The position numbers and the translations under genes were made by a program. Below the pieces are notes generated by a model that worked only from the letters and a program-made list of their open reading frames with translations, did no database searches and was not told where the DNA came from. This document shows positions 45,225 to 61,909 of a stretch of 64,000 nt of DNA, one piece after another. This DNA comes from Rhodobacter sp. TJ_12. Lineage in GTDB: Bacteria > Pseudomonadota > Alphaproteobacteria > Rhodobacterales > Rhodobacteraceae. Position 1 is the stretch's first letter. Each line of letters begins with the position of its first letter. Location of the stretch: the NCBI RefSeq assembly GCF_020023995.1, contig NZ_NRRD01000001.1:124001-188000 (forward strand), in the 5' to 3' direction.

Positions 45225-45878
45225 ATGAGCGAACACGCCTATTTCCCGCCCGAGGAGCCGCCGCGCATCCTGTATGCCGATCACGAAATTCTGGTGGTCG
45301 ACAAGCAATCGGGGCTGTTGTCGGTGCCGGGTAAGGGGGCGCATAAGGCCGATTGCCTGATCGAACGGTTGCGCGGTGCCTATCCGCAGGTTTTGCTGGT
45401 GCATCGGCTTGATGCCGATACTTCGGGGGTGATGGTCTTTGCGCTGACCCCGCATGCGCAGCGCCATCTGGGGCTACAATTTGAAAACCGCCAAACCAAG
45501 AAGCACTATCTGGCGCGACTTTGGGGGCATTTGGTGCCGAAAGCCGGGCGGGTGGATTTGCCGCTTTGCGTTGATTGGCCGAACCGGCCACGCCAGCATG
45601 TGAACTATGAGATGGGCAAGCCCGCACAGACGGATTGGAAAGTGTTGCGCCATGACCCCGATGGCACAACGCGGGTCCGTCTGACGCCGCTCACCGGGCG
45701 GTCGCATCAGTTGCGGGTGCATATGCTGTCGCTCGGGCATCCGATTTTGGGCGATCCGTTTTATGCCGAGGGGCCCGCGCGCGATTATCCACGCCTGATG
45801 TTGCATGCCGAAAGCTTGCGGCTGCGCCACCCCGATGGCGGGCACCATATGACCTTTAGCGCGCCGCGCCCGTTCTAA
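45225..45878 (+). CDS. RluA-family pseudouridine synthase
   Basis: A 217-residue enzyme with the RluA signature HRLDADTSGVM (catalytic Asp63) and LTGRSHQLRVHM near the C-terminus. It lacks an S4 domain, like the RluA subgroup that modifies 23S rRNA and tRNA position 32; the exact target is not determined. Start 45225 gives MSEHAYF; it follows msrC by 31 bases. Confidence 0.88.
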   Translation: MSEHAYFPPEEPPRILYADHEILVVDKQSGLLSVPGKGAHKADCLIERLRGAYPQVLLVHRLDADTSGVMVFALTPHAQRHLGLQFENRQTKKHYLARLWGHLVPKAGRVDLPLCVDWPNRPRQHVNYEMGKPAQTDWKVLRHDPDGTTRVRLTPLTGRSHQLRVHMLSLGHPILGDPFYAEGPARDYPRLMLHAESLRLRHPDGGHHMTFSAPRPF

Positions 45879-45958: not shown

Positions 45959-46990
45959 TCATATGGCCAGCTCAGCGGCGCGGGAGAGTTGCGCAACGAA
46001 GCCCCCCAATTGTTGCGCGAAGCCCGCAGGTGCAAGCCAGGTGCGGTCCATCTGTGACAGGTAGCGATGCGCGGACGTCACCCGCTCGGGCGTGGCGATC
46101 AGCGCGGCGGCCTCGTCCATGGTGTCGTAAAACAGCGGATAGGCCGCGCCCAGATATTCGACGGCGGCGGGATGGCGGTTCAGCACAATCGGCGTGGCGC
46201 GCGCAATGCATTCGATCAGCGTGTTGGAGGCCGACAGATCCCAATATTGGCAAAACACGATGCTGCTGGACAGAAGCGCGTCGTAATCGTCGTTTTCCAC
46301 CTCGTCGCGCAGCTCGACCTTATCGCTGATTGGTAGATCGCGCAGCGGGGACAGTGCATCCGTGCGCTCCAGCGCCTCCAAAACCCAAGGGCGGCGCTGC
46401 AACAGGTGGATCCGGTGAAAGCTGGGGCCAAGCGGCACTTGGTAGATCGCGCGGATGTTGCGGCCATACCAGCCGACCTGCACCACCTGCGGAAGCGGCT
46501 GCGCCAGATAGCGCGCCGGGTCGAATTGCGGGACCGCAGTTTCTGACGGGTGTTTGAGCACCAGCACTGGCACATCCAGCGTGTCGCGCAGCCAATCGCC
46601 CAGATATCGGCTCAGTGCCACCGCGCCCAGCAAATGACGCACGCTTTCACGAAACGCCGCTGTCGCCATATAGGCGGCGGGGGGTGCGGTCGGGTCCAGC
46701 CATTCGGGTAAGCACGGCGGGTGATGGAAAATTCCAACCCAAGGCGTTGTCCAGGTTTGGCGGCAATAGGCATGCTGAAAGCTGCGCTCGACAAAATCAT
46801 CCAGCAACACCGCTTCGGGGTCATGATAGGGTCGCAGCGCCGCCATCACGAAATGCCAACCAGAGCGGTGACGACAATTTTCCGGGTCGCCCATCTGCTT
46901 GAGATGCAGGGGCAATCGGAACCGGGGGGCGGGATCGGTGCCCGGCGCGGTGGGCATGTCAGTGTGGGAAAGGCCGGTTTGGGAAAGCAT
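45959..46990 (-). CDS. GT-B-type glycosyltransferase
   Basis: A 343-residue protein whose C-terminal half has the GT-B nucleotide-sugar site pattern SASNTLIECIARATPIVLNRHPAAVEYLG. The N-terminal half (HPPCLPEWLDP, LVLKHPSE) fits an acceptor domain. No membrane segment. It is the last gene of the minus-strand glycan cluster and starts 6 bases after the radical SAM gene with AAAGGA upstream. Donor and acceptor are unknown. Confidence 0.78.
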   Translation of the reverse strand: MLSQTGLSHTDMPTAPGTDPAPRFRLPLHLKQMGDPENCRHRSGWHFVMAALRPYHDPEAVLLDDFVERSFQHAYCRQTWTTPWVGIFHHPPCLPEWLDPTAPPAAYMATAAFRESVRHLLGAVALSRYLGDWLRDTLDVPVLVLKHPSETAVPQFDPARYLAQPLPQVVQVGWYGRNIRAIYQVPLGPSFHRIHLLQRRPWVLEALERTDALSPLRDLPISDKVELRDEVENDDYDALLSSSIVFCQYWDLSASNTLIECIARATPIVLNRHPAAVEYLGAAYPLFYDTMDEAAALIATPERVTSAHRYLSQMDRTWLAPAGFAQQLGGFVAQLSRAAELAI

Positions 46991-46996
46991 TGTGGT

Positions 46997-48169
46997 TCAA
47001 TCCTTTTGTCGTTCCAGCAGCGGGATCGCATGCGTTCCGGCGGCCAACTGGCCGCTATCGCGCTCGGCCTGCGATAGGTAAACCACCCCGTCGCGCCACT
47101 CCGCGGCTTCGGCGGCGGCGCGGATGCCTGCGACCCAATCTGCGCTCCATGAATAATTCGCGGCATTGCAGCCCACGCATCGCCGGTCACGCGCTTCGGA
47201 CAGGATATCAGCGCATAAATCGGACAAAAGCGGTTCGATCAGCCCGTCGCCGCTCAGCACGCGGCCCTGATGCCAGCAGGGAAAAATCCCGTAATTGGAA
47301 ATGCCCAGAAAGGTCGCGGGAATAGCGCAGCCCCCTGCCGGGCGAAACCGGCGGTGCTTGTTTTGAAACAGATCCGAAAGCTCTGTCACCAGCGCTTCAT
47401 CGTTGAAATGAATGCCTTCGGAGTGGCAGGCGTCGCGCACCCGTTCCATCTGCCGCCGAATATCGCCCGCGCTTTCGGGGGGCGGCAAAAGCGCGGCGGT
47501 TTCAGGCACCACTTCGACATGGGTGAACCCCAGATAGCTGGGCCGGCCCGCCGCGCGAATGCGCCGCCACGTCTCTTCCAAATGGGCGGCGTTTTGCGCT
47601 TGGATCACGGTATTGGTGCCCCATTGCACTTTGGAGCGGCTGAGCATTTCAACCGCGCGAAGCGTTTTGTCATAACAGCCCGGCACACCCCGGATTGCGT
47701 CATGCACCGCAGGCGGCCCATCGATTGAGAGCGTCACGCATTTAAGCCGCTCAAGCACCGCGACATGTTCGGGCTTGAGCAAAGTGCCGTTGGTGACAAG
47801 TTCAATGGCAAAGCCATGGGACAAAGCGCGGTCCAAAATATCGAGAAAGCGCGGATGGACGAAAGGTTCGCCGCCCGAAAAGCTGATCGTTTCCACCCCG
47901 ATCCGGCGCGCGTCATCAAGGATATGCCCGATCCGCTCGAACGTCATGAAGGCCTTTTCTTGCGGGCGGCGGCACATGTTGCATTTGAGGTTGCACACCT
48001 CGCTCAGGCCGATGTCGATGCGGCGATACCGGCTGGCATAAACCGGGGCGGCGCAGTCGGAGCAGGGGGCTTGCGCAAGCGCTTGTCCATGCGGAAGCGG
48101 CAGTGCAACGCCTGTGCCACAGGCGACGCAGGTGCCCTGCACCATGGGAATGCTATCGCAATCGTTCAT
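46997..48169 (-). CDS. radical SAM protein with N-terminal zinc ribbon and SPASM-like tail
   Basis: A 390-residue protein. The N-terminus has two CxxC pairs (Cys14/17, Cys36/39) typical of a zinc ribbon. The radical SAM cluster motif is Cys59-x3-Cys63-x2-Cys66, with GGE at 99-101. The C-terminal region has five or more cysteines (GGCAIP, IFPCWHQG, CVGC) as in SPASM/twitch domains that hold extra iron-sulfur clusters. Many relatives modify peptides; here the neighbours are sugar enzymes, so the substrate is unclear. The start could be 48145 instead; no strong ribosome-binding site is seen. Confidence 0.85.
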   Translation of the reverse strand: MNDCDSIPMVQGTCVACGTGVALPLPHGQALAQAPCSDCAAPVYASRYRRIDIGLSEVCNLKCNMCRRPQEKAFMTFERIGHILDDARRIGVETISFSGGEPFVHPRFLDILDRALSHGFAIELVTNGTLLKPEHVAVLERLKCVTLSIDGPPAVHDAIRGVPGCYDKTLRAVEMLSRSKVQWGTNTVIQAQNAAHLEETWRRIRAAGRPSYLGFTHVEVVPETAALLPPPESAGDIRRQMERVRDACHSEGIHFNDEALVTELSDLFQNKHRRFRPAGGCAIPATFLGISNYGIFPCWHQGRVLSGDGLIEPLLSDLCADILSEARDRRCVGCNAANYSWSADWVAGIRAAAEAAEWRDGVVYLSQAERDSGQLAAGTHAIPLLERQKD

Positions 48170-48270
48170 GCTGAACGCCAGCCCCCAAGAGCCTCAAGAA
48201 ACCGCAACCAAGCCTTGATAAATGACACTGTTACCCAAAGCTGCCCGATCCTTGCCATTCTGGCAAGGTT

Positions 48271-49335
48271 TCAGCGATGCAGCCCTGCATCGGCAGGCGA
48301 GATGGGCTTGGGCCAATTGCGGGTGATCGACCGCAATGTGTCCGGCACGGGCGCCAGAAGGCCGCGTGCCGTCAGATTTTGTCCGGCGTGGAGCGCAGGG
48401 CCAGCTTCAAACGCATGAAACAGGTTTTCCGCGTCGTGACCATCTAGGCCATCGGTCATCCAAAGGAAGATCGCTGCATAGCCGCGCGTGGCCGCATCAT
48501 GCAGCCGGGCGGCCAGACGGGTTTGCGTTTCGTGCCACCCCGCGCGCCCGGCGGGCGGAGGGGTCCTTGAAAAGATGCCGCCCAATTCGCCCAAGATCAC
48601 CGGTCCGTTATCCCAAAGCGCGGCCGCATCGGGCAGGGCTTTGTCAGGGCTGTGAAAATGCGCGTCCAGCGCTTCCAGTGCAAGCGGCGCATAGCGCCCA
48701 GCAGGCAGGCAGTGTTCGGCGCAAAAACCAGATCCGATAGACAGCGCGCAATCGGGCAGCGCGGCGCGGATCAGACCTGTCAAACGCCGCAAGGCAGGCA
48801 CCATTTCGGGCCAATCATAGCCCAGCCCGGTGCCATTGCCCAAGGGGCCCGCCAGCATCGCCTCTGGCTCGTTGCACAGATCAATCCCCCAGGTGATCGG
48901 GGCCATTTCCGGCAAAAGCGGGGCCAGCACGTTTTGAAAGAAGGCCTCTGCCGCCGCTTCGCGGGTCAAGATCGCCCGGGTCACCATATCGGGGCGGCGG
49001 CGGGGCGCATTGGCATCAAGCAGCACCCAATAGGCGCGTAGCCCCGCACGTTGTAAAAGCCCGATCAGTTGCCGCAGATTGCGCTGAAATTCCGCATCAC
49101 AGCGCAGCGCGCGGCCTGCGCCATCGGTCACGATCCCCTCGGCATCTTCAAACAGCCATAGACGCACCACGCGGACCCCATGCGCGACCAGCGCAGCGAA
49201 CAGCCGTTCCACTTCGTCAGGGCGGAAAGTGCTTGGCCAGTCCGGGCAGCTTTCGTTGTGGCCAAGGTCATGGCCATAGCCACCTAAAAACCATGGCAAG
49301 TTGACCCCCAGAACTGGCGGCGGGCGCGGGCTCAT
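48271..49335 (-). CDS. glycoside hydrolase, GH-A clan (GH5-like)
   Basis: A 354-residue protein with a TIM-barrel pattern: acid/base Glu156 in LCNEPE and nucleophile Glu250 in VILGELGG; VNLPWFLGG near the start and IFLWMTDG near the end. No signal peptide is seen, so it is probably cytoplasmic, unusual for a polysaccharide-degrading enzyme. It overlaps the upstream glycosyltransferase gene by 4 bases and may trim or transfer sugars during synthesis. Confidence 0.8.
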   Translation of the reverse strand: MSPRPPPVLGVNLPWFLGGYGHDLGHNESCPDWPSTFRPDEVERLFAALVAHGVRVVRLWLFEDAEGIVTDGAGRALRCDAEFQRNLRQLIGLLQRAGLRAYWVLLDANAPRRRPDMVTRAILTREAAAEAFFQNVLAPLLPEMAPITWGIDLCNEPEAMLAGPLGNGTGLGYDWPEMVPALRRLTGLIRAALPDCALSIGSGFCAEHCLPAGRYAPLALEALDAHFHSPDKALPDAAALWDNGPVILGELGGIFSRTPPPAGRAGWHETQTRLAARLHDAATRGYAAIFLWMTDGLDGHDAENLFHAFEAGPALHAGQNLTARGLLAPVPDTLRSITRNWPKPISPADAGLHR

Positions 49336-50288
49336 ACCGGGGCCCCCAGCAGGGCCTGCCAATCACGCACCCAGCGGTCTTCGTGGTGGTTGGCCAAGGC
49401 AAGCTTGCGGCTGGCCGCGCCGAACCGCGCAGCCAGATCGTGATCGGCCAGTAACATTTGGCAATGGGCGCGCAATTCGGCGGCGGTATGCCCGATCAAC
49501 CCGTTTTCGCCATGGATCACATAGCGTTCGATCCCGGGCAGCGGCGGGCTGACGATTGGCATCCCGGTCATCATCGCCTCGATCAGGGTGATCGTATATT
49601 CGCGCTCCCCGTCATGCAGATAGACCCGCGCGTTGCGGAAAGCGCTGCGCAGCCCGTCATAATCCACGGGCTCTTGGGCGCGGTCGAGATGGTCGATATG
49701 GCGATGCGGCAGCCCGGCGGTGGCCTCGGTGCAAAGCGCATGGTTCCAGCCGCGCGCGTGCCAGCTATGGATCACCGTCAGAATCGTTTCTTCGGCCCCG
49801 GTCCAGCCGGCATATTCGGTCGGACTTAGCCCCAGTTCGATCTCGGGCAAATCGACGCCGAAGCGATCGCGCACCCAAGCGGTGGTGCGCGGGTAATAAG
49901 AGGCGACGGAAAAATCCGCCCGCGACAGGACCTCGTCCCATTCGGCTTCTGAGAGTTCGTCCTCCTTGGCGGCAAAGAACAGCTTCGGCAGGCTGTGATC
50001 TTCACGAAACAGCTTGAACTGCCATGGGAAATGCAGCCAAGCGCGGTTCCACGCCCGGGCCTTGGGGGCAATGGCCGCGAGCGCCGCACGATAGCCCCCC
50101 GCATCAAGCTTTAGCTGGCCGTCGTCATAGTGGTCAAAAAGGTTCGTCACATTGGGCGGGCGCGGGCGCCAATAGCGGAATTGATCCCAGTGACCCAGCA
50201 GGCTGACATCCAGCCCGCAACGGCAGAAATGGTATTGGATGCCCGGATGCATCGGCACGACAAGGACATTGGCCTTGTCGCCGGGCAT
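49332..50288 (-). CDS. GT-B-type glycosyltransferase (first gene of glycan cluster)
   Basis: About 318 residues with a GT4-like C-terminal domain: YTITLIEAMMTGMPIVSPPLPGIERYVIHGENGLI, the E-x7-E type donor site. The N-terminal domain has VVPMHPGIQYHFCRCG. Start is uncertain: ATG 50288 is used, but an ATG at 50360 would overlap the divergent sulfotransferase gene head to head. It overlaps the glycoside hydrolase gene by 4 bases (ATGA). Confidence 0.8.
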   Translation of the reverse strand: MPGDKANVLVVPMHPGIQYHFCRCGLDVSLLGHWDQFRYWRPRPPNVTNLFDHYDDGQLKLDAGGYRAALAAIAPKARAWNRAWLHFPWQFKLFREDHSLPKLFFAAKEDELSEAEWDEVLSRADFSVASYYPRTTAWVRDRFGVDLPEIELGLSPTEYAGWTGAEETILTVIHSWHARGWNHALCTEATAGLPHRHIDHLDRAQEPVDYDGLRSAFRNARVYLHDGEREYTITLIEAMMTGMPIVSPPLPGIERYVIHGENGLIGHTAAELRAHCQMLLADHDLAARFGAASRKLALANHHEDRWVRDWQALLGAPV

Positions 50289-50358
50289 CGGCGTGCTGGC
50301 GGCAAAATCGCTGTGCAAATCGCTTTTCTCACCTATTGCGATGGGCCATGATCGCCTC

Positions 50359-51159
50359 ATGCAAAGCTTGAAATTTTTTCTGGGCCATCACAAGGGTGGA
50401 ACGCGGTTCGTTGGCAATGTGCTGGAGCGCTTTTTGGCGCCCGAGGGGCGGGCGGTTGTGCCGCTGAGCAACCCGAAATGGTTCGACTTTGACCCAGCCG
50501 GTGCGGTGGCGCGCGCTGGCCCGGGGGCGGTGGGTAACTATATGAATGCCGATTACGCGCTGCTGCCCCAAGAGGCGGAGTTTCGCGCCTTTCACATTTT
50601 GCGCTGCCCGCGCGATACTGCGGTTTCGGCTTATTATTCGCATTTGCATTCGCATGGCACGGATTACTGGCCGGAACTGGTGGCGCATCGCGCCCGCTTG
50701 GCGGCATTGGATGCGGGCGCGGGGCTTTTATGTGATCTGGATTTTACCGATGCGCTGCCGACCGATGGCTATGACATTGGAGTGTTTCGGGCGATGGCGG
50801 CGTGGCGTTTTTACGATCCGCGGATTTTGGAATTGCGGTTCGAGGATTTGATTGCTGACCCGGGGCCGGTGCTGCGGCGCGCCTTTGCGTTCATCGGCCT
50901 TTTGGACCCCGAAGATGCTGCGGCTTGCGCGCGGCTAGAGGCCGCCGTCGCAGAATTCGGTTTTGCGCGCATGTCGGGCGGGCGCCAGCCCGGACAACGT
51001 GATGACCGGGCGCATTATCGCAATGGGCGCGCGGGCGCTTGGCGCGACGCGTTCGAGGCGCGCCATCATGCGTGGTTCGCAGAACACCATCCGGATTTGA
51101 TCGCGCGGATCGCGCAACAAAGCCCCGTCTGCGGCGCCGTGCCGCAGGTTGCCGGCTAA
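50359..51159 (+). CDS. sulfotransferase family protein
   Basis: A 266-residue protein with a P-loop-like PAPS 5'-site GHHKGGTRFVGNVLE at residues 9-23, the 3'-phosphate site LRCPRDTAVSAYYSHL, and ELRFEDLIADPG. It would transfer sulfate from PAPS to a sugar or other hydroxyl group. The gene is divergent from the glycosyltransferase cluster and probably part of the same locus. An alternative ATG is at 50341. Confidence 0.82.
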   Translation: MQSLKFFLGHHKGGTRFVGNVLERFLAPEGRAVVPLSNPKWFDFDPAGAVARAGPGAVGNYMNADYALLPQEAEFRAFHILRCPRDTAVSAYYSHLHSHGTDYWPELVAHRARLAALDAGAGLLCDLDFTDALPTDGYDIGVFRAMAAWRFYDPRILELRFEDLIADPGPVLRRAFAFIGLLDPEDAAACARLEAAVAEFGFARMSGGRQPGQRDDRAHYRNGRAGAWRDAFEARHHAWFAEHHPDLIARIAQQSPVCGAVPQVAG

Positions 51160-51339: not shown

Positions 51340-51828
51340 ATGCTGCGTATCGCTCAGTGGTTCTGGTCCATCATCGACGGTTTGATGGCGCTACTCCTTT
51401 CAGCCATGATCGTGCTGGTTTTCATCAATGTGGTGCTGCGCTACGGATTCAATTCCGGCATCCGGCAATCGGTTGAACTGGCGCGGCTGTGGTTTGTGTG
51501 GGTCGTGATGCTGGGCGCGGCGGTCACGCTGCGCCGGGGCGAGCATCTGGCGGTCACCGAGGTGACCGAGAAGCTGGTGCACAAGCTTGTGCCGCATCTG
51601 CGCCGCTTGTGCTGGATCGTGGTGATCGTGGCGGTCGGCATGCTGTTTGTCGGCGCCTTCAATCAGATGATGGCGAACTGGAGCAATATTTCCCAGCTGA
51701 CGGGTCTGCCCTCTGCGCTGTTCTATCTGGCGGGTGTGGTTTCGGCCGTGCTGATGGGGGCCATTGCGGTGGTGCGCCTGTTCGACCCGATGGGGATCGA
51801 TGCCCTGCTTTCCGAGGATGAGAAATGA
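51340..51828 (+). CDS. dctQ: TRAP transporter small membrane subunit
   Basis: A 162-residue DctQ-type protein with four predicted membrane helices and the family motif near RYGFNSGIRQSVELARLWFVWVVMLGAA. It partners with DctM; the start has a strong GGAGGAGG site. It overlaps dctM by 4 bases. Gene context points to a sugar acid (gluconate/idonate-like) as substrate. Confidence 0.92.
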   Translation: MLRIAQWFWSIIDGLMALLLSAMIVLVFINVVLRYGFNSGIRQSVELARLWFVWVVMLGAAVTLRRGEHLAVTEVTEKLVHKLVPHLRRLCWIVVIVAVGMLFVGAFNQMMANWSNISQLTGLPSALFYLAGVVSAVLMGAIAVVRLFDPMGIDALLSEDEK

Positions 51829-53105
51829 CTTTCGCGCTGTTCATTGGCGTCCTATTCGCGTCGATCCTGCTCGGCCTGCCGGTCGCCTTTGCCCTGCTTT
51901 TGGCGTCGATGGTGCTCATGTTCCACCTCGACACGTTCAGCCCGGATATTCTGGCGCAAGGGCTGATCAACGGCGTTGACAGCTTCCCGCTTTTGGCGAT
52001 CCCGTTCTTCTTGGTCGCGGGCGAGGTCATGTCGCGCGGCGGTCTGTCCGAACGGATCGTGCGGCTGGCGATGACCATGGTCGGGCACCGTCGCGGCGGG
52101 CTGGGCTATGTTGCGATCATGACCTCGATCGTGCTGGCGGGCCTGTCGGGCTCTGCGGTGGCCGATGCGGCTGCGCTGGTGTCGATCCTTTATCCGATGA
52201 TGCGCAAGGCGGGCTATCCGGCCGGGCGCAGCCTTGGCCTTCTGGCCTCTGGCGGGATCATCGCGCCGATCATCCCGCCTTCGCTGCCGCTGATCTTGGT
52301 CGGTGTCGCGGGCAATATCTCGATTGCTAAGCTGTTCATGGCCGGGATCGTGCCGGGGCTGATGCTGGGGCTGACGCTGATGACGGTCTGGTCCTTCGTG
52401 ATGCGCAAGGAAGACATTGAAACCCTGCCCAAGGCCAGTGGCGCCGAGCGCCGCGCCGCCTTCAAGGAAGGGATCTGGGCGTTGATGCTGCCTGTGATCA
52501 TTATTGGTGGGATCCGCTCGGGTGCCTTCACCCCGACCGAGGCGGCAGTGGTCGCGGCGGTTTACGCGATCACCGTTTCGACGCTGGTCTATCGCTCGGT
52601 CAACCTCAAGATGCTGTTCGACGTGCTGGTGGCCGCCGGACGCGCCACGGCCATGGTGATGTTCCTTGTCGGCGCGGCGATGGTGGCAGCTTGGCTGATC
52701 ACCGTGGCGCAACTGCCGCAACAACTGGCTGCGATGCTTGATCCGCTGATCGATAGCCCGCGCCTGCTGATGTTGGTGATCATGCTGATCGTGCTGGCCG
52801 TTGGCATGGTGATGGACCTGTCGCCCACCGTGCTGATCTTGGTGCCGCTGTTCATGCCGGTGGTAAAAATGGCGGGCATCGATCCGGTCTATTTCGGGCT
52901 GATGTTCATCCTCAACTGTTCCATCGGCTTGCTGACGCCCCCTGTTGGCACCGTTCTCAACGTTATCTGCGGCGTCGGCAAAGTCCCGATGAGCGCCGCC
53001 GTGCGCGGGGTCGCGCCGTTCCTAACTGCCTATGCGGCGCTGATGGGGCTGCTCATCATCTTCCCGCAACTCATCACCGTGCCCGCCAAAATCTTCGGCG
53101 GCTGA
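51825..53105 (+). CDS. dctM: TRAP transporter large membrane subunit
   Basis: A 426-residue permease with about 12 membrane helices and typical stretches FPLLAIPFFLVAGEVMSRGG, VLAGLSGSAVADAAAL, GIIAPIIPPSLPLILVG and LLTPPVGTVLNVI. It uses a sodium gradient with DctP delivering substrate. The ATG overlaps the dctQ stop. Confidence 0.95.
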   Translation: MTFALFIGVLFASILLGLPVAFALLLASMVLMFHLDTFSPDILAQGLINGVDSFPLLAIPFFLVAGEVMSRGGLSERIVRLAMTMVGHRRGGLGYVAIMTSIVLAGLSGSAVADAAALVSILYPMMRKAGYPAGRSLGLLASGGIIAPIIPPSLPLILVGVAGNISIAKLFMAGIVPGLMLGLTLMTVWSFVMRKEDIETLPKASGAERRAAFKEGIWALMLPVIIIGGIRSGAFTPTEAAVVAAVYAITVSTLVYRSVNLKMLFDVLVAAGRATAMVMFLVGAAMVAAWLITVAQLPQQLAAMLDPLIDSPRLLMLVIMLIVLAVGMVMDLSPTVLILVPLFMPVVKMAGIDPVYFGLMFILNCSIGLLTPPVGTVLNVICGVGKVPMSAAVRGVAPFLTAYAALMGLLIIFPQLITVPAKIFGG

Positions 53106-53127
53106 CCATCCCAAGGAGGAGCCAGAC

Positions 53128-54102
53128 ATGCAATTCTTCAAAGCCCTCGGCCTTGCTTCGGCCATGGCCCTTGCGGCCTTCGGCGCGCAGGCCGACACCA
53201 ACCTGAAACTGGCCCATGCCGCGCCGGAAACCGATCTGCAGCAAAACCTGTCGCTGTTCTTCAAAGAACAGGTCGAAGCGCGCACCGGTGGCTCGGTCAC
53301 GGTGACGATCTTCCCGCAAGGCCAGTTGGGCAACGATGCTGCGATGATCGACGGCGCGCGGTCGGGCATCATCGATATCGCCATGTCGGGGCTGAACAAT
53401 TTCACCGGTCTGGTGCCGGAAGCGGGCGCGTTCGAGCTGCCCTTCATGTTCCCCAGCCGTGCGCTTGCCTATAAGGTGCTGGATGGCGAAGTGGGCCAAG
53501 GTGTGTCCGATCAGTTCAGCCAGTTCGGCCTGCATGTTCTGGGCTACCCGGAAAACGGCTACCGCAACATGACCAACAACCGCGGCCCGATCCGCACGCC
53601 GGACGATGTGGCCGGTCTGAATATGCGCGTGAACAACTCCAAAGCGCTGAATGACATGTTCCTTGCGCTCGGCGCGAACCCGACGCAATTGCCGGTGGCC
53701 GAGCTTTACACCGCGCTGGAAACCGGCGTTGTGGATGCGCAAGATCACCCGATCGGCATCGTGCTGTCGTTCAAGTTCAACGAAGTGCAGAAATATCTGT
53801 CGCTCACCCAGCATGCCTACTCGGCGCTGGCGCTTGTGATGAACGAAAACAAGTTCAACAGCCTGACCGCCGAAGAGCAGAAAGTCGTGACCGATGTCGC
53901 TGCCGAGGCGATTGCGATGCAACGTGATCTGGCGCAGGAAAAAGAAGCCGAGATGATCGCCGAGCTTGAAGCCGAAGGCATGGAAGTGAACAGCGATGTC
54001 GATGCGGCGGCTTTCCAAGCGGTGGTGAAGCCGGTTTGGGATACCTTCATCGCCAACAACGGCGACGCCGTGGTCAACGCGATTGCCGCGACGCAAGAAT
54101 AA
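53128..54102 (+). CDS. dctP: TRAP transporter substrate-binding protein
   Basis: A 324-residue periplasmic protein: signal peptide MQFFKALGLASAMALAAFGAQA, then a DctP-type solute-binding fold with LKLAHAAPETD, GGSVTVTIFPQGQLGN and GLNMRVNNSKALNDMF. The arginine in LNMRV is the expected carboxylate-binding residue. AAGGAGG precedes the ATG. Last gene of the operon; a terminator follows. Confidence 0.94.
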   Translation: MQFFKALGLASAMALAAFGAQADTNLKLAHAAPETDLQQNLSLFFKEQVEARTGGSVTVTIFPQGQLGNDAAMIDGARSGIIDIAMSGLNNFTGLVPEAGAFELPFMFPSRALAYKVLDGEVGQGVSDQFSQFGLHVLGYPENGYRNMTNNRGPIRTPDDVAGLNMRVNNSKALNDMFLALGANPTQLPVAELYTALETGVVDAQDHPIGIVLSFKFNEVQKYLSLTQHAYSALALVMNENKFNSLTAEEQKVVTDVAAEAIAMQRDLAQEKEAEMIAELEAEGMEVNSDVDAAAFQAVVKPVWDTFIANNGDAVVNAIAATQE

Positions 54103-54122
54103 GCCCAGCAACCGGGGCAAAC

Positions 54123-54149
54123 AAAAGGGGCGGGAAACCGCCCCTTTTT
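54123..54149. terminator. terminator after dctP
   Basis: An 11-bp perfect stem (aaaaggggcgg / ccgcccctttt) with a gaaa tetraloop is followed by T. It is symmetric and could also end the convergent LacI-family gene. Confidence 0.93.
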
Positions 54150-54194
54150 CATATTTAGCGATTGGGGCCCGTTCGCCGGGGGGCGGCGGGTGGG

Positions 54195-55211
54195 CTATTG
54201 GCTTGATTGTCGGATCAGCAATTCCGGGGTGATTTCCAACGTGGTCGGGGCAGTGCAGATGCCATCCAGCACCTCAAGGATCAGCTTGGCGCTCCGCGCG
54301 CCGATATCATGCGGAAACGGGTTGATCGTGCTGAGAGAGGGCACGGAAATCTCTGAAATCTCGTAATCGCCAAAGCCGGTGATCCAAAGATCCTTGGGCA
54401 CATCGACGCGGCGGCGCTGGCATTCGGTCAAGGCGCCAAAGGCCGACAAGTCCGACACACAGATAACCGCCTGTGTATCGGGAAAGGTTTCCAGAAGGCG
54501 GGCCATGGCTTCGGCGCCTTCGCGCATCGAAATCGGCGGCGTGCCCGCTGCGATCAACCGCGTGGGCGCAAGTCCGTGGCGTTGCATGGCGGCGATAAAT
54601 CCGGCCCGGCGCGATGCGCCCCGCGTATCGGTGTTGTTTTCGCCGCCGATGAAGGCGATCCGGCTCAGCCCCTCGGTCACCAGATGGTCGACCATGCTTT
54701 CGACCGCGCGGGCGTTGGAAAAGCCCACCACATGGCCGATCGGATCTTTGGGCAGATCCCAAGTCTCGATCACTGGGATCGCTGCATTTTGCAACAGCTT
54801 GCGGGCGCGGTCGGTGTGCTTGCCGCCAGTGACCACCATGGCCTCGGGGCGGCGGCGCAGGAACTGCTCGATCAGCCGTTCTTCCTCGGCCATGTCGTAA
54901 TCGGTATAGCCCAGCAGGATTTGCAGGCCCCGCGCCTTCAGCCCCTCGGCCAAGCCGCGCAGGGTTTCGGCAAAGTTGGCATTGTTGATCGAGGGGATCG
55001 TGACCGCGACAAAGTCCGTCTTTTGCGAGCGCAGACTGGCGGCGGTGCTGTCAAAGACATAGCCCAGTTGATCTGCCGCCTTCAGGATCGCTTCGCGGGT
55101 CGTTTCACTGACCGAGCTTTGCGCCTTGAAGGCGCGGCTCACGGTCATTGGCGACACCCCGGCAAGGCGGGCGACATCGGCCATAGTGGGGGCTTTGCGC
55201 GGCGTAATCAT
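54195..55211 (-). CDS. LacI-family regulator (GntR/IdnR-like)
   Basis: The 338-residue repressor has an N-terminal helix-turn-helix (MADVARLAGVSPMTVSRAF) with hinge LRSQKTD, then a periplasmic-binding-protein-like effector domain. It resembles gluconate-type regulators (VIETWDLPKDPIGHVVGFSN). It lies downstream of the catabolic genes on the same strand and convergent to the TRAP operon. It is one of two candidates for binding the TGTTATCGATAACA sites. Confidence 0.9.
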   Translation of the reverse strand: MITPRKAPTMADVARLAGVSPMTVSRAFKAQSSVSETTREAILKAADQLGYVFDSTAASLRSQKTDFVAVTIPSINNANFAETLRGLAEGLKARGLQILLGYTDYDMAEEERLIEQFLRRRPEAMVVTGGKHTDRARKLLQNAAIPVIETWDLPKDPIGHVVGFSNARAVESMVDHLVTEGLSRIAFIGGENNTDTRGASRRAGFIAAMQRHGLAPTRLIAAGTPPISMREGAEAMARLLETFPDTQAVICVSDLSAFGALTECQRRRVDVPKDLWITGFGDYEISEISVPSLSTINPFPHDIGARSAKLILEVLDGICTAPTTLEITPELLIRQSSQ

Positions 55212-55263
55212 GGTGATGTGCTAACGCTGGGCGCGCGCGAAATCCAGTCCTCGCCGCGCAAGG

Positions 55264-55294
55264 GCCTGCCGCTGCAAAAAAAGCCGCGGCAGGC
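55264..55294 (-). terminator. hairpin with poly-T loop at end of catabolic operon
   Basis: A perfect 9-bp stem (gcctgccgc / gcggcaggc) encloses a 13-nt loop with seven T on the minus strand. It lies between the 111-residue gene and the LacI gene. Because the T run is in the loop and not after the stem, normal intrinsic termination is doubtful. Confidence 0.5.
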
Positions 55295-55303
55295 GAACGG
55301 GGC

Positions 55304-55639
55304 TCAGGCGATCACCGTGTCATGCGCGGTGGTGATGTGGTGGTGGATTCGGCCATCGAAATAGCGCGCCAGAACCGACTCGGTCGCCTCTTTACTTTCG
55401 GCACGCACCGCGCTGGCCAGCGCGATATCCACCGCCTCAAGGCTAGGATAGCTGATCGCAAGGATCAGCGGGAACGAAGGGGCACCGTCATCGCGGCTTT
55501 CCTCGAAGCAAATCCGCACGGCCAGCGCATCGGGAAATGCGCGCCATTTCGGCAGCACCTCGGTCAGGATGGCTTCGCGGAAGGCCTCGGTCTGGCCTTC
55601 CTTGATCGTGCCTTCGAACAGCGCATAGCGGGTGATCAT
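55304..55639 (-). CDS. small protein, possibly dimeric alpha/beta-barrel type
   Basis: A 111-residue cytoplasmic protein starting MITRYALFEGTIKEG and containing AISYPSLEAVDIALASAVRAESKEATESVL. The pattern of a short strand, helix and strand suggests a dimeric ferredoxin-like barrel (EthD/Dabb type), but I do not recognise the family with confidence. Its start overlaps the stop of the dehydrogenase gene by 4 bases, so it belongs to the sugar-acid operon. Function unknown. Confidence 0.75.
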   Translation of the reverse strand: MITRYALFEGTIKEGQTEAFREAILTEVLPKWRAFPDALAVRICFEESRDDGAPSFPLILAISYPSLEAVDIALASAVRAESKEATESVLARYFDGRIHHHITTAHDTVIA

Positions 55640-56523
55640 TCGAACAACTCCTTTCGAGGTCCTTTGAAGTATTCCATTAGCGCGGCCTGATCCTCGCCGC
55701 CCAACCCCGCGGCAGTCAGCATCCGGTGCACCTCGGCGCAAACGGCGGTGAGCGGCATGGCCGTATGGGTCAGCCGCGCCAAATCCTGCGCGCCATTCAG
55801 GTCTTTGACCATGTTGTCGATACGCCCGGTGCGGCGATAATCGCGCGTTGCAAAGCGCGGCATGTATTCTTGCAAGATCGCGCTGTCGGCCCGCCCACCG
55901 CGTAGCGCTTGCGGGATTTTTTCCGCATCCACGCCCGCCGCCTCGGCCAAGGCGGTCGCCTCGGCCACGGCAAGGAAATTGAGCCCGCACAGGACCTGAT
56001 TGATCAGTTTGGTGGTTTGTCCCGCGCCGGGCCCCCCCATGCGGGTCTGGTTCGATGCAACCTTGGCCAACACCTTTTGCGCATCGGTCACGTCGGCCTC
56101 GGCCCCGCCCTGCATCAGGGTCAGCTCGCCGATGGCGGCCTTGGGGATGCCGCCCGACAGCGGGCTATCGACCCAGCGCAGGCCGCGCTCTGCAGCATCG
56201 GCGGCAAGGACTTTGGTAGATTCCGGGTCAATCGACGACATGTCGATGATCAGCGTGCCGGGGGCGGCCCCCTCGGCCACGCCGCCCGGCCCAAAGGCGG
56301 CAGCGCGCACGATTTTCGCGGAATTGAGCGACAAGATCACCGCGCTGGCCCCGCTGGCGGCTTCGGCGGCTGAGCTTGCGGCGCTTGCGCCCTGCGCAAC
56401 CAGCGCGGCGACTTTTTCCGCGTCGAGGTCAAAGACGCGCAACGCGGTGCCGGTGGTAGCAAGGCGCGCGCCGATGGCGCCACCCATGGCGCCTGCACCG
56501 ATCAGGGCAACGGTCTGGGTCAT
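55636..56523 (-). CDS. beta-hydroxyacid dehydrogenase (GarR/HIBADH family)
   Basis: A 295-residue NAD(P)-dependent enzyme: Rossmann motif LIGAGAMGGAIGARL, the substrate-binding DSPLSGGIPKA, and the catalytic lysine in GQTTKLINQVLCG. The family includes tartronate semialdehyde reductase and 3-hydroxyisobutyrate dehydrogenase. The substrate is probably a sugar-acid derivative, inferred from the operon. 4-base overlaps on both sides. Confidence 0.88.
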   Translation of the reverse strand: MTQTVALIGAGAMGGAIGARLATTGTALRVFDLDAEKVAALVAQGASAASSAAEAASGASAVILSLNSAKIVRAAAFGPGGVAEGAAPGTLIIDMSSIDPESTKVLAADAAERGLRWVDSPLSGGIPKAAIGELTLMQGGAEADVTDAQKVLAKVASNQTRMGGPGAGQTTKLINQVLCGLNFLAVAEATALAEAAGVDAEKIPQALRGGRADSAILQEYMPRFATRDYRRTGRIDNMVKDLNGAQDLARLTHTAMPLTAVCAEVHRMLTAAGLGGEDQAALMEYFKGPRKELFE

Positions 56524-57017
56524 GTCTTGGCTCCTTGAATCTGGGGAAGGACGGCGGCGACGATCCGTTCTAGCGGCTGGTCGATGTCGACCGTCACCGC
56601 CTCGTCCGGGCCGGGGGCCTCTAGTGTGGCGAACTGGCTGTCGAGCAGCGACAGCGGCATGTAATGGCCGGCGCGTTCGGCCATGCGCGCGGCAATCAGA
56701 TCGCGGCTGCCCGCCAGATGCACAAAGCACACCGGGCCGCCCGCGCCCGCGCGGATACGGTCGCGATAAACCCGGCGCAGGGCGGAACAGCCGATGATGA
56801 TCGGGGCTTCGGCGTTCAGCGCTTGCGCCACCCGGTCAAGCCACGGCCACCGGTCTTCATCCGTCAGCGCAATGCCCGCACGCATCTTTTCCACATTGGT
56901 GTCGGGGTGCAGGTCATCGCCGTCCCGGTAGGGCACGGCCAGCGCCTTGGCCAGCCCCTCGCCCACGCTGGACTTGCCGCACCCCGACACGCCCATGATG
57001 ATGACCCGCAAGCTCAT
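56520..57017 (-). CDS. gntK: gluconokinase
   Basis: A 165-residue GntK-type kinase: P-loop MGVSGCGKSS (residues 8-17), DGDDLHPDTNVEKMRAGIALTDEDRWPWL, and SALRRVYRDRIR. It phosphorylates gluconate to 6-phosphogluconate. The ATG at 57017 overlaps the idnO stop by 4 bases. Confidence 0.94.
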   Translation of the reverse strand: MSLRVIIMGVSGCGKSSVGEGLAKALAVPYRDGDDLHPDTNVEKMRAGIALTDEDRWPWLDRVAQALNAEAPIIIGCSALRRVYRDRIRAGAGGPVCFVHLAGSRDLIAARMAERAGHYMPLSLLDSQFATLEAPGPDEAVTVDIDQPLERIVAAVLPQIQGAKT

Positions 57018-57769
57018 AGCGACGCCGTAACCCCGCCATCGACAAAGAGCGTGTGCCCGTTCACGAAGCTTGCCGCATCGGAAGCCAAGAAGATGCACGC
57101 GCCTTGCAATTCTTCGACCTTGCCCCAGCGCCCGGCGGGAGTGCGTTTTTCGAGCCAAGCCGAAAACGTCTCATCCGCCACAAGCGCGGCATTCAGCGGG
57201 GTGTCGAAATAGCCCGGCGCGATGGCGTTGCAATTCAGACCGTGTTTCGCCCAATCGGTCGCCATGCCTTTGGTCAGGTTCGCCACCGCGCCCTTGGTCG
57301 CGGTATAGGGCGCGATGCCGGGCCGGGCGAGCGCGGTCTGCACCGAGGCGATATTGACAATCTTGCCCGCGCCGCGCGCGATCATGTGGCGGGCGACTGC
57401 TTGGCCTACGTGGAACACGCTGGCCACATTGGTCTGCAGAAGTTTGTCAAACGCATCGGCGGGGAAGTCTTCAAGCGGCGCGCGATGCTGCATGCCGGCA
57501 TTGTTCACCAAAATGTCGATCGGCTTGCCTTCGGATTCGAACGCATCCACCGCCTTGCGCACGGCCTCGTGGTCTGTCGCGTCAAAGGCCAGCAATTCCG
57601 CGCCGGGGATATTGGCCGCCGCCGCTTCCAGCTTGGTCCGGTCGCGCCCATTGAGCACCACCTGCGCGCCCGCAGCGGCCAGCCCTTGTGCCAGCGCAAA
57701 GCCGATTCCCTGCGACGAGCCGGTGATCAGTGCGCGCCGCCCTTGCAGGTCGAACAGAGGGTAATCCAA
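57014..57769 (-). CDS. idnO: gluconate 5-dehydrogenase (SDR)
   Basis: A 251-residue short-chain dehydrogenase with TGSSQGIG (cofactor), NNAGMQHRAPLEDF, ASVQTALARPGIAPYTATKG (Ser-Tyr-Lys site) and FVDGGVTASL. The NNAG-MQHR pattern fits IdnO, which reduces 5-ketogluconate to gluconate. The start is TTG at 57769, fixed by an AAGGAG site 6 bases upstream. First gene of the minus-strand operon. Confidence 0.88.
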   Translation of the reverse strand: MDYPLFDLQGRRALITGSSQGIGFALAQGLAAAGAQVVLNGRDRTKLEAAAANIPGAELLAFDATDHEAVRKAVDAFESEGKPIDILVNNAGMQHRAPLEDFPADAFDKLLQTNVASVFHVGQAVARHMIARGAGKIVNIASVQTALARPGIAPYTATKGAVANLTKGMATDWAKHGLNCNAIAPGYFDTPLNAALVADETFSAWLEKRTPAGRWGKVEELQGACIFLASDAASFVNGHTLFVDGGVTASL

Positions 57770-57813
57770 GGTGTGCTCCTTCGTTTCGCTCTCGACAAAT
57801 CCTGTCTGTATCG

Positions 57814-57842
57814 TTTATGTTATCGATAACACGCGCTGTCAA
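57814..57842 (-). promoter_or_regulatory. idnO promoter with LacI-type operator in the spacer
   Basis: On the minus strand a consensus TTGACA (57837-57842) is followed by a 17-base spacer and CATAAA (57814-57819). The palindrome tgttatcgataaca (57818-57831) lies in the spacer and touches the -10 box. The site is shared with the divergent ketoacid reductase gene and is likely a repressor target. Confidence 0.82.
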
Positions 57843-57879
57843 GATGGCATCCGCGGACAAGCCCGGGAACGGAGAGATG

Positions 57880-58827
57880 ATGACGAAACCCCACATCCTG
57901 CAGGTTGGCCCTTACCCCGAATGGGATCAGGTGCCGCTCGACGCCGCCTTCCATACGCACCGCTATTTTGAAGCGGCGGATAAGGCGGCTTTTCTGGCCG
58001 AGGTGGGCCCGCTGGTGCGCGGCATCGCCACGCGCGGGGAGTTGGGCGCGGATGCGGCGATGATTGCGGCTTGTCCCAACCTCGAGATCATCTCGGTCTA
58101 TGGTGTGGGCTATGATGCGGTCGATCTGACGGCGGCACGGGCGCGCGGCATTCGCGTCACCAATACCCCCGATGTGCTGACCAATGACGTTGCCGATCTG
58201 GGCGTGGCGATGATGCTGATGCAGTCGCGCGGCATGCTGGGCGCCGAGGCGTGGGTGCGCGACGGGTCTTGGGCCGCCAAGGGTCTTTACCCGCTTCAGC
58301 GCCGTGTCTGGGGCAAGCGCGCGGGTGTGCTGGGCCTTGGTCGGATCGGGTTTGAGGTCGCCAAGCGGTTGGCAGGCTTCGATATGGAGATTGCCTATTC
58401 CGATGTCGGGCCGAAAGACTATGCCAAGGATTGGGCCTTTGAGGCCGATCCGGTGGCGTTGGCCGCGCGGTCCGATTTTCTGTTTGTGACGCTGGCCGCC
58501 TCTGCCGCGACGCGCCACATCGTCGGGGCAGAGGTGATTGCCGCGCTTGGCGCCGAGGGGATGCTGATCAATATCTCGCGCGCATCGAATATCGATGAAG
58601 AGGCGCTTTTGACGGCGCTTGAAACCGGCACCTTGGGGGCGGCGGCGCTGGATGTGTTTGAGGGCGAGCCCAATCTGAACCCGCGTTTCCTGTCGCTGCC
58701 CAATGTGCTGTTGCAGCCTCATCATGCCAGCGGCACGGTGGAGACGCGGCAGGCGATGGGCAAGTTGGTGCGCGATAATCTAAGCGCCCATTTCGCGGGC
58801 GAACCGCTTTTGACCGAGGTGCTGTGA
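57880..58827 (+). CDS. D-2-hydroxyacid dehydrogenase (GhrB/2-ketogluconate reductase-like)
   Basis: A 315-residue protein: VYGVGYDAVDL (catalytic Arg region nearby), the nucleotide-binding GVLGLGRIGFEVAKRL, and the catalytic His in QPHHASGTVE. It probably reduces 2-keto sugar acids to the hydroxy form, by context 2-ketogluconate or 2-ketogulonate. ATG 57880 has GGAGAG; an adjacent ATG at 57877 is possible. The stop shares one base with the idnD start. Confidence 0.87.
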   Translation: MTKPHILQVGPYPEWDQVPLDAAFHTHRYFEAADKAAFLAEVGPLVRGIATRGELGADAAMIAACPNLEIISVYGVGYDAVDLTAARARGIRVTNTPDVLTNDVADLGVAMMLMQSRGMLGAEAWVRDGSWAAKGLYPLQRRVWGKRAGVLGLGRIGFEVAKRLAGFDMEIAYSDVGPKDYAKDWAFEADPVALAARSDFLFVTLAASAATRHIVGAEVIAALGAEGMLINISRASNIDEEALLTALETGTLGAAALDVFEGEPNLNPRFLSLPNVLLQPHHASGTVETRQAMGKLVRDNLSAHFAGEPLLTEVL

Positions 58828-59861
58828 TGAAAGCCATTGTCATACATGAAGCCCATGACCTGCGCATTGAAGATCGTCCCGAAGACGCGCCCGGCCCGGG
58901 TCAGTTGAAGCTGCGTCTTGCCACCGGCGGGGTCTGCGGCTCGGATTTGCATTATTATCACAACGGCGGCTTCGGCACGGTGAAGCTGCGCGAGCCGATG
59001 ATTTTGGGCCACGAAGTGTCCGCCTATGTCGAGGAAATCGGCGCGGGCGTGACCGGGTTCAAGGCTGGGCAATTGGTGGCGGTGTCGCCCTCGCGTCCCT
59101 GTGGGGGCTGCAAATATTGCCTTGAGGGGCTGCCGAACCATTGTCTGAACATGCGGTTTTACGGCTCGGCGATGCCGTTCCCGCATATTCAGGGCGCGTT
59201 CCGCGAAAGCCTTGTGGCCGATGCCAGCCAATGCGTCGATGCGACCGGGCTGACGCCCGGAGAGGCCGCGATGGGCGAGCCGCTGGCGGTGACGCTGCAC
59301 GCGACCACCCGTGCGGGCGGTATGGTGGGTAAAAAGGTGCTGGTCACCGGCTGCGGGCCGATTGGGGTCTTGTCGATCCTGTCCGCGCGCGCGGCGGGTG
59401 CTGCCGAGATTGTGGCCACGGATCTGTCTGATTTCACCTTGGCGCTGGCGCGTCAGGCGGGGGCGGATCGCACGATCAACACGGCCCAAGACCCCGATGC
59501 GCTGGCGGGCTATGCCGCGGAAAAGGGCCATTTCGATGTGCTTTATGAATGCACCGGGGTGGCGGCGGCTCTGGCGGGCGGCATTGCCGCGATGCGCCCG
59601 CGCGGGGTGATTTTGCAGCTTGGCCTTGGCGGCGACATGAGCCTGCCGATGATGGCGATCACCTCGAAAGAGCTGGAGCTGCGCGGCTCATTCCGGTTCC
59701 ACCCGGAATTCGCTGTGGGCGTGGCGCTGATGCAAAAGGGCCTGATCGATGTGAAGCCGCTGATCACCCATAGCGTCGCGCTGTCCGAGGCCGAAAGCGC
59801 CTTCAAGCTGGCCTCTGACAGAAGCCAAGCGATGAAAGCGCAAATCGTCTTTTCGGAATAG
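58827..59861 (+). CDS. idnD: L-idonate 5-dehydrogenase
   Basis: A 344-residue zinc-dependent medium-chain dehydrogenase. The catalytic zinc site is GGVCGSDLHYYHNGG and GHEVS; structural zinc is in CGGCKYCLEGLPNHC; NAD-binding VTGCGPIGVLS. It oxidizes L-idonate to 5-ketogluconate. The HYYHNGGFGTVKLREPM stretch is IdnD-like. The start follows TGATG. Confidence 0.9.
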   Translation: MKAIVIHEAHDLRIEDRPEDAPGPGQLKLRLATGGVCGSDLHYYHNGGFGTVKLREPMILGHEVSAYVEEIGAGVTGFKAGQLVAVSPSRPCGGCKYCLEGLPNHCLNMRFYGSAMPFPHIQGAFRESLVADASQCVDATGLTPGEAAMGEPLAVTLHATTRAGGMVGKKVLVTGCGPIGVLSILSARAAGAAEIVATDLSDFTLALARQAGADRTINTAQDPDALAGYAAEKGHFDVLYECTGVAAALAGGIAAMRPRGVILQLGLGGDMSLPMMAITSKELELRGSFRFHPEFAVGVALMQKGLIDVKPLITHSVALSEAESAFKLASDRSQAMKAQIVFSE

Positions 59862-59862
59862 A

Positions 59863-60282
59863 TCAGCCAATCTCTGCGCCGATGGCCGCCAAAGCGGCCT
59901 CGGCCACGGCGATATCTTGCGCCCCGGTGCCCGAGCCAATGCCAATCCCGCCCAAAAGCACGCCATTGAGCCGAATCGGCAAGCCGCCGGGCAGGCCGGT
60001 CACTGCGCCGCCGGTGGCCGCTGCGATGCCCGGGCGGAACTCTTCAGGCACCCTTGCGCTGGGCGTGCCATTAGAGGCGGCAGTCTGCGCCTTGGCCCGG
60101 GCCGATCGCATCGAAAGCACTTTCGCGCCCACCATGCGCAGGCTGGCAAGCTCGACGGCAGAGGTATCGACGATCACGATGCATTGTGGCTGGCCGATCT
60201 CTGTGGCCTTTTGCACGGCGGCCTCCAACATTGTCAGGAGCGCCGCATCGCTCAGCCGTTCGGTGGTATGCGTGATCTGCAT
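59863..60282 (-). CDS. GlcG/HbpS-family (DUF336) protein
   Basis: A 139-residue protein with the DUF336 end GGAVTGLPGGLPIRLNGVLLGGIGIGSGTGAQD and the N-terminal CIVIVDTSAVELA. Family members bind heme or occur in glycolate-type operons without a fixed role. Convergent with idnD (1-base gap), divergent from gnd. AAAGG precedes the ATG. Confidence 0.87.
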   Translation of the reverse strand: MQITHTTERLSDAALLTMLEAAVQKATEIGQPQCIVIVDTSAVELASLRMVGAKVLSMRSARAKAQTAASNGTPSARVPEEFRPGIAAATGGAVTGLPGGLPIRLNGVLLGGIGIGSGTGAQDIAVAEAALAAIGAEIG

Positions 60283-60326
60283 CGGATGCCTTTCAAATTG
60301 ACGCTCGCGCCGGGGAGGTCTAACGT

Positions 60327-60340
60327 TGATAACGATAACA
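60327..60340. promoter_or_regulatory. degenerate operator between the GlcG-like gene and gnd
   Basis: TGATAACGATAACA differs from the palindrome TGTTATCGATAACA at two positions in the left half; the right half is intact. It lies in the divergent control region of the two genes. Confidence 0.6.
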
Positions 60341-60500
60341 TATTCGCGGGAGGGGACAGCTTTGCGATCTGTTTTCAAGCTATTGCCTTCCATTCGCAAA
60401 GGCTATGGGCCCGGTCTGCCCGCGGTCAAGAGGGACGAGACACCATGCCTGCCGTCCTTTGCCCCGATGGCACGCAGGACCGTTCAGGGGAGTCGCTCAC

Positions 60501-61907: not shown

Positions 61908-61909
61908 GC

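Follow-up and report, generated by a model that had tools for sequence, protein, structure and literature searches.

Results

Gene content and spacing

The window analysed here is a 64,000-nucleotide stretch of Rhodobacter sp. TJ_12 (contig NZ_NRRD01000001.1, positions 124,001 to 188,000), which belongs to contig 1 of a genome assembled as 114 contigs with a total of 3.58 Mb. Our subject is a group of five genes, A to E, lying in the window between a pseudouridine synthase gene (RluA, PF00849), which ends at 45878, and the genes for a tripartite ATP-independent periplasmic (TRAP) transporter, of which DctQ (PF04290) begins at 51340. An earlier, sequence-only reading of this DNA described a glycosyltransferase, a protein resembling glycoside hydrolase family 5 (GH5), a radical S-adenosylmethionine (SAM) enzyme and a second glycosyltransferase on the minus strand together with a divergent sulfotransferase, and all five open reading frames (ORFs) are confirmed at their coordinates. 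Gene D (49332..50360, minus strand, up to 342 amino acids, with a possible start at 50288) encodes a GT4-type glycosyltransferase, and gene C (48271..49335, minus strand, from an ATG start) a predicted GH5-type hydrolase of clan GH-A, for which there is an alternative longer ORF of 363 amino acids from a TTG at 49362 (48271-49362). Gene B (46997..48169, minus strand, 390 amino acids) encodes a radical SAM enzyme with an N-terminal zinc-ribbon pattern, and gene A (45959..46990, minus strand, 343 amino acids) a glycosyltransferase-like protein, of GT-B type by motif only. Gene E (50341..51159, plus strand) encodes a sulfotransferase and is divergent from D; its ORF opens at 50239, although the start is probably at 50341 or 50359.

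The likely order of transcription is D, C, B, A. If C begins at the ATG at 49335, the stop codon of D and this start share 4 nt as ATGA, and only 6 nt separate B from A; this overlap and this short gap suggest that D-C-B-A is an operon. The genes had been described as overlapping or nearly abutting, which describes these two junctions well but not that between C and B, where the gap is 101 nt. A perfect 8-bp hairpin with a 3-nt loop (48250-48268), without a following T-run, is situated in this gap. Promoter-like sites number 3 as compared with 1.5 (sd 1.3) in shuffled sequences, and terminator-like sites 5 as compared with 6.1, and we draw no claim from these counts.

Gene B encodes an unclassified radical SAM enzyme

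The B protein belongs to the radical SAM superfamily (PF04055, 77.3 bits against a cut-off of 29.5, 2e-21). Its cysteines comprise a zinc-ribbon pattern (C14-C17/C36-C39), recognised from the cysteines only and hence a putative metal site, the CxxxCxxC motif (C59/C63/C66), and four auxiliary cysteines (C281, C298, C331 and C334). In the sequence-only reading the protein was called SPASM-like; the radical SAM assignment and the cysteine pattern hold, but B gives no match to the Pfam SPASM family (PF13186) and falls outside that subfamily. A SPASM domain is C-terminal and has seven cysteines and two clusters, and we take the four auxiliary cysteines of B to be the one-cluster 'twitch' pattern and not a full SPASM domain.

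Against NCBIfam, B scores from 47.6 to 77.1 bits where the cut-offs range from 170 to 850, and none is reached among the 25 of 82 families listed; for the BlsE family (TIGR04466) the score is 65.5 bits and the cut-off 400. The known family of unrelated function to which B might have belonged, a possibility raised at the outset as a challenge to a role in glycan synthesis, is thus not to be found among these 25. Because no cut-off is reached among the families listed, B is, as judged from its sequence, unclassified among radical SAM enzymes and belongs to no named family, and likeness in the core does not fix its reaction. A two-sequence AF2 model of B is poor (pLDDT 47) and we use its fold matches as support only; BlsE ranks first among them, followed by SuiB and SkfB, with AbmM sixth, SpeY tenth and DesII twelfth.

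Gene C encodes a GH5-type protein without a signal peptide

As a single sequence, C matches no family of Pfam or NCBIfam and no PDB entry up to an E value of 0.1; up to an E value of 10 there are just two PDB matches, both unrelated, the better at 0.21. A four-sequence profile of C matches the GH5 mannanase 2c0h, the mannan endo-1,4-beta-mannosidase of the blue mussel, at 1.7e-10 (next best 0.16), and the match spans profile positions 8-170 of 317. None of the four members matches a Pfam hydrolase family. C has the motifs NEPE (residues 164-167) and GELGG (258-262), assigned from sequence with strand positions that are predicted only, and they match what we take to be the GH5 arrangement, in which the acid/base glutamate follows an asparagine on strand 4 and the nucleophile glutamate is on strand 7. 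Both catalytic glutamates are present in three of the four sequences (C, P0003 and P0004 in equivalent form) and missing in P0002. A single-sequence AF2 model of C is likewise poor (pLDDT 39) and its fold matches are again support only, the four best being mollusc and springtail GH5 mannanases (2c0h, 3vup, 4oou and 4ooz). Because of the profile match to 2c0h, the NEPE and GELGG motifs and, weakly, the poor model, C looks like a GH5 protein by homology and is a predicted hydrolase. By hydropathy it begins without a signal peptide, as do its intact relatives by eye, in agreement with what had been noted of the hydrolase at first reading.

B and C occur together in Myxococcota

We scanned an 84,980-species contig collection with B using exact 8-residue patterns, which detect close relatives only, and obtained 9 stretches, of which two hold relatives and one of these is full-length. 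The full-length relative, from a metagenome-assembled genome (MAG) of Myxococcota (L025), is 44% identical to B over residues 16-378; the other (L026), a radical SAM protein with 26% identity, was set aside. A two-sequence B profile finds members in 3 of 235 Myxococcota genomes at E<=1e-40, namely G790 (the MAG of L025), G1001 and G939. These relatives are 43-45% identical to B and keep all of the cofactor cysteines; across B and the three of them every cysteine listed above is retained (P0001 being one residue shorter between the first two), and C59/C63/C66 are invariant in all four. In each of the three Myxococcota the B relative is preceded by a SPASM-type radical SAM paralogue (PF13186; L025:2006-3154, L070:10926-12011 and L071:10576-11664), which overlaps it in two cases and lies about 20 nt from it in the third. 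The genome of the window (G000) has no separate copy of this paralogue at 1e-10, B itself being the sole match.

In G939 a C-like ORF (L071:6433-7164) lies 2.2 kb downstream of the B relative on the same strand, and is 35% identical to C along 150 residues (E value 2e-17 for a search space of 44 kb). When a profile of C and this G939 sequence is used on the 235 Myxococcota genomes, six are matched at E<=1e-3. The C subfamily is represented by two copies in G939, one in G1001, and a 28-residue N-terminal piece at a contig end in G790. Four rows with more distant forms, from G944 (two), G889 and G819 (E 1.7e-18 to 2.7e-6), were left out of this count because by eye they have lipoprotein-like or secreted starts. 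The fragment from G790, with 28 profile positions at E 3.5e-5, was counted because, again by eye, its first 23 residues agree with the G1001 copy at 18/23. The two full Myxococcota copies begin without a signal peptide as judged by eye.

The genomes with B are therefore also the genomes with the signal-less C subfamily, in three of three cases, one of them as a contig-end fragment. Both searches covered the same number of genomes of the phylum, and the genome identifiers shown agree. Under independent draws the odds of identical three-genome sets from 235 would be about 1 in 2 million, a figure that is overstated because the three B copies (74-80% identical to one another) represent one lineage. 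Better evidence that B and C are linked comes from their positions, since they adjoin each other in the window and lie close to each other in G939.

On the same strand as the radical SAM pair of G939 and upstream of it, a GT2 glycosyltransferase gene shares 4 nt with the first gene of the pair, and beyond this is a gene for a 701-residue protein (L071:13255-15360) in which a polysaccharide deacetylase, a GT2 domain and a radical SAM-like domain that lacks the cysteine motif are fused. The L070 contig ends just upstream of its radical SAM pair. As a separate observation, G939 has JmjC_2 and YcaO genes about 8 kb and 11 kb upstream of the pair (L073:152-4662), and a small ORF of 122 amino acids adjoins the JmjC_2 gene; this is possibly a distinct locus for a ribosomally synthesised and post-translationally modified peptide (RiPP).

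The glycosyltransferases and the sulfotransferase

The family labels originally given to the five proteins are borne out by Pfam for B, D and E and by the profile and motifs for C, but A matches no family above cut-off in Pfam, NCBIfam or the PDB. D is of GT4 type (glycosyltransferase group 1), with matches to PF13524 (40.1 bits against 25, 4.5e-10) and PF00534 (33.4 against 26.4, 4.2e-8). E is a sulfotransferase (PF00685, 29.5 bits against 22, 6.1e-7), and its motifs HHKGGTRF and RCPRDTAVSAY presumably fit the 5'- and 3'-phosphosulfate loops. Towards the C-terminus of A, the motif SNTLIECIARATPIV resembles by eye the motif ITLIEAMMTGMPIV of D, and from this likeness together with the location of its relatives A is probably a glycosyltransferase.

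Relatives of A occur in two of 138 other genomes of the bacterium's family (G175 and G138, loci L129/L130), as parts of proteins of about 1000 amino acids situated in polysaccharide loci. By Pfam, the G175 locus encodes a ManC-type GDP-mannose pyrophosphorylase, a GDP-sugar epimerase, Poly_export and two sulfotransferases, and the G138 locus a ManC-type protein, a GDP-mannose dehydratase, an epimerase and a protein just under the cut-off for Sulfotransfer_3 (24.2 against 27), with two further proteins that have no Pfam match. On plasmids the sole match to A is a TPR protein of the Crinalium plasmid pCRI9333.04 (L089), with 32% identity over residues 41-315. Its neighbours include glycosyltransferases, an FkbM methyltransferase, an HPr kinase, nucleotidyltransferases, PqqD and an ABC transporter.

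Distribution and genomic setting

The whole-genome searches covered A, B, C and E, with a limited number of first-look candidates scored per genome. At E<=1e-3 C is unmatched in 393 other genomes of the family and in 384 others of the class, and B has none at E<=1e-20 in the 384 class genomes. At E<=1e-3 B has matches in 44 genomes besides its own, among 61 relatives, the best at 4e-16; among the matches listed, these weaker ones span mainly the radical SAM core. None of A to E was found adjoining RluA in 17 congeners (tblastn, 1e-4), where 16 of the stretches extended about 9 kb beyond RluA and that of G013 only about 2 kb. What follows RluA differs among the five congeners inspected, except that G014 and G017 look alike. 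Because the module was not found near RluA in the congeners and the genes that follow RluA differ, we regard the site as variable and the module as accessory. The G+C content of the cluster matches that of its surroundings, and base composition gives no mark of foreign origin.

Among viral contigs there is no relative of C and a single weak match to B; a scan of these contigs with the alignment A1 gave 37 radical SAM matches at 20-31% identity, which were set aside. Plasmid records give B matches in 29 cases, all below 60% identity and none covering 80% of B, and no match for C.

Discussion

The best reading of these data is a locus for polysaccharide modification whose radical SAM enzyme is unclassified and whose conserved core is formed by B and C, the glycosyltransferases and sulfotransferase varying between lineages. 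It draws on direct observation of gene identities, spacing, rarity, the co-occurrence of B and C, motif conservation, and the polysaccharide context of the relatives of A. In the window's bacterium we propose, with a probability of roughly 55%, that the five genes are an accessory module, probably acquired horizontally, whose products assemble and edit one sulfated glycan in the cytoplasm. The sequence-only reading had proposed one sulfated glycan or glycosylated peptide as the product of the five genes, and this is supported in part: the B/C core and the link to polysaccharides have support, but a strict five-gene unit does not, as A occurs without C and E is without a match in the family genomes and plasmids searched.

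We infer what the substrate is, in which order the steps take place, which reaction B performs, that C is active and that E acts on the same glycan. D and probably A would assemble an oligosaccharide or short chain in the cytoplasm. B could then abstract hydrogen from a sugar carbon, leading to epimerisation, oxidation or decarboxylation of one residue, while its single auxiliary Fe-S cluster would accept or donate an electron. The signal-less C might trim or transglycosylate the chain at a linkage resembling a beta-mannoside or beta-glucoside, and E would add sulfate to the glycan.

There are several observations that weigh against this proposal. Within the locus itself, no genes for sugar-nucleotide synthesis, a flippase, a polymerase or export are seen by eye in or adjoining the cluster. 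The likeness of B to its nearest solved relative, BlsE (7vob; 3.1e-16 with a single sequence and 5.5e-19 with a profile), is restricted to the radical SAM core, residues 26-208, and peptide maturases and haem enzymes reach equal or nearly equal scores among the listed NCBIfam families. As to linkage, conservation of the gene set in related genomes had been put forward as a check, and what is conserved is B with C in the three Myxococcota but not the whole set: A is present without C in G175 and G138 (C having matched its own genome alone in the family search), E has no match at 1e-15 in the 138 family genomes and none on plasmids, so that it has no conserved linkage, and none of A, D and E is matched in the three Myxococcota loci fetched. 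The Myxococcota evidence is itself weakened in that the three cases may represent one inheritance, that inspection by eye of the 12.3 kb of L025, with flanks of 2 kb and 8 kb, reveals no glycosyltransferase, glycoside hydrolase or sulfotransferase, and that in G1001 the hydrolase is on a different contig with neighbours that are not evident sugar genes. Finally, the C paralogue at the G939 locus (P0002, the ORF described above) is shorter than C and has lost both catalytic glutamates. The intact C paralogue of G939 sits on another contig (L083:9223-10149), and since the locus copy has lost both motifs while the other G939 copy is intact, the locus copy may bind rather than cut its ligand, and hydrolysis may not be its task.

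A bolder and decidedly tentative extension, which we consider possible yet doubtful, is that the zinc-ribbon/twitch radical SAM enzyme and the cytoplasmic GH5-type protein constitute an undescribed 'edit and trim' core, common to the window's bacterium and Myxococcota, that would chemically alter a residue within a polysaccharide already assembled but not yet sulfated. The hydrolase at the locus would, in one lineage, have turned into a subunit without catalytic activity that binds the glycan and offers the chain to the radical enzyme.

An alternative explanation is that B is a peptide maturase of the RiPP type, and that the sugar genes glycosylate and sulfate a peptide whose precursor is small and unannotated or encoded elsewhere. 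Many of the 25 NCBIfam matches listed for B are indeed peptide maturases, SuiB and SkfB are second and third among the fold matches of the poor model, and further points in favour are the PqqD, HPr kinase, nucleotidyltransferase and ABC transporter genes near the Crinalium relative of A and the YcaO and JmjC_2 genes upstream of the G939 pair, although in G939 other genes separate these from the pair. However, a recognition domain is absent from the Pfam matches of the five proteins, and no precursor-like gene is seen in the three gaps of the locus examined as stop-to-stop frames, in line with the initial remark that none is visible; a tblastx comparison between loci for a common small gene was too noisy in this GC-rich DNA to reveal one. 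In the Myxococcota the radical SAM genes overlap or are about 20 nt apart, leaving no small gene between them, and a GH5 enzyme has no obvious role in peptide maturation. We favour a glycan, and consider a peptide or glycopeptide product unlikely though conceivable.

It is also conceivable that the five are chance neighbours, unrelated accessory genes that share the variable stretch downstream of RluA, and that a true link exists only between B and C (or between D and C). The varying genes after RluA among the five congeners inspected, two of them alike, would be expected from this, as would the occurrence of A apart from the set, the divergent orientation of E and its lack of a match in the 138 family genomes, and the hairpin-containing 101-nt gap between C and B. 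Chance does not readily account for the overlap of D with C and the 6-nt spacing of B and A, nor for the recurrence of B with C in Myxococcota, and all five genes are compatible with carbohydrate or sulfate chemistry; we hold an accidental grouping to be improbable.

A third proposal, that B is a defence enzyme of the prokaryotic viperin type and the other genes are passengers, is prompted by matches of the PADLOC pVip models to B (65.0 and 68.7 bits) and is rejected as having next to no likelihood, as the NCBIfam viperin score is 55.2 bits against a cut-off of 180, many radical SAM families match B equally or better, and the zinc-ribbon and four auxiliary cysteines kept in all four B members are features that, to our knowledge, viperins do not have.

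Returning to the glycan-modifying module, its two central proteins can be compared with several known systems. BlsE, whose rank as the nearest solved relative of B by sequence speaks for the proposal, is a cytosylglucuronate decarboxylase and acts on a sugar residue, as is proposed for B; it removes the C5 carboxyl of a glucuronoside (PMC3715490). B differs in having the N-terminal zinc-ribbon pattern and a GH5-type gene alongside, notwithstanding the shared core. AbmM, SpeY and DesII are further sugar-acting radical SAM enzymes among the weak fold matches of the B model, which imply no membership, and they act on sugars or aminocyclitols of small-molecule antibiotics, unlike the role we propose for B. 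More generally, the radical SAM enzymes acting on sugars that we are able to name have small antibiotics or cofactors as their substrates.

For C, the closest likenesses are the GH5 beta-mannanases of Mytilus, Aplysia and Cryptopygus that the profile or the model matches, which share the NEP and GE motifs and which we take to be members of subfamily GH5_10. In contrast to these enzymes, C has no signal peptide, lies in a biosynthetic-looking operon, and belongs to a group of four members without a Pfam hydrolase match. PslG offers a parallel of a different kind, being one of the hydrolases known to be encoded within exopolysaccharide operons; it is reported to be located chiefly at the inner membrane, with a part in the periplasm (PMC9075953). 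C is likewise encoded with synthesis genes, and the PslG structure 5bx9 is among the weak fold matches of the C model. It should be noted that PslG belongs to another hydrolase family than C, that C looks soluble, and that the present locus lacks export and polymerase genes and adds a radical SAM enzyme.

In the literature as represented by titles and the beginnings of abstracts, with incomplete coverage, we found no exopolysaccharide locus with a radical SAM enzyme and a glycosyltransferase, and nothing, within the same incomplete coverage, that unites a radical SAM enzyme, a glycoside hydrolase, a glycosyltransferase and a sulfotransferase, that describes a SPASM radical SAM epimerase acting on oligosaccharides, or that places a SPASM radical SAM enzyme in a polysaccharide gene cluster with a glycosyltransferase. 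If the proposal is correct, radical SAM editing of a sulfated polysaccharide would be a new route to the diversity of bacterial surface glycans, and the B/C pair provides both a concrete marker for further loci of this type and two proteins that can be tested. The role of hydrolases in polysaccharide operons is described as elusive in one report (PMC9075953), and the B/C locus bears on the question of why such operons encode them.

Beyond gene E, the genes at 51340-62938 resemble by eye a cluster for sugar-acid uptake and catabolism, with the TRAP transporter, LacI-type regulators, a kinase and dehydrogenases, and are apparently unconnected with the five-gene module. Among plasmid records, the closest relatives of the neighbouring TRAP permease are from Paracoccus (81%) and Ruegeria (80%).

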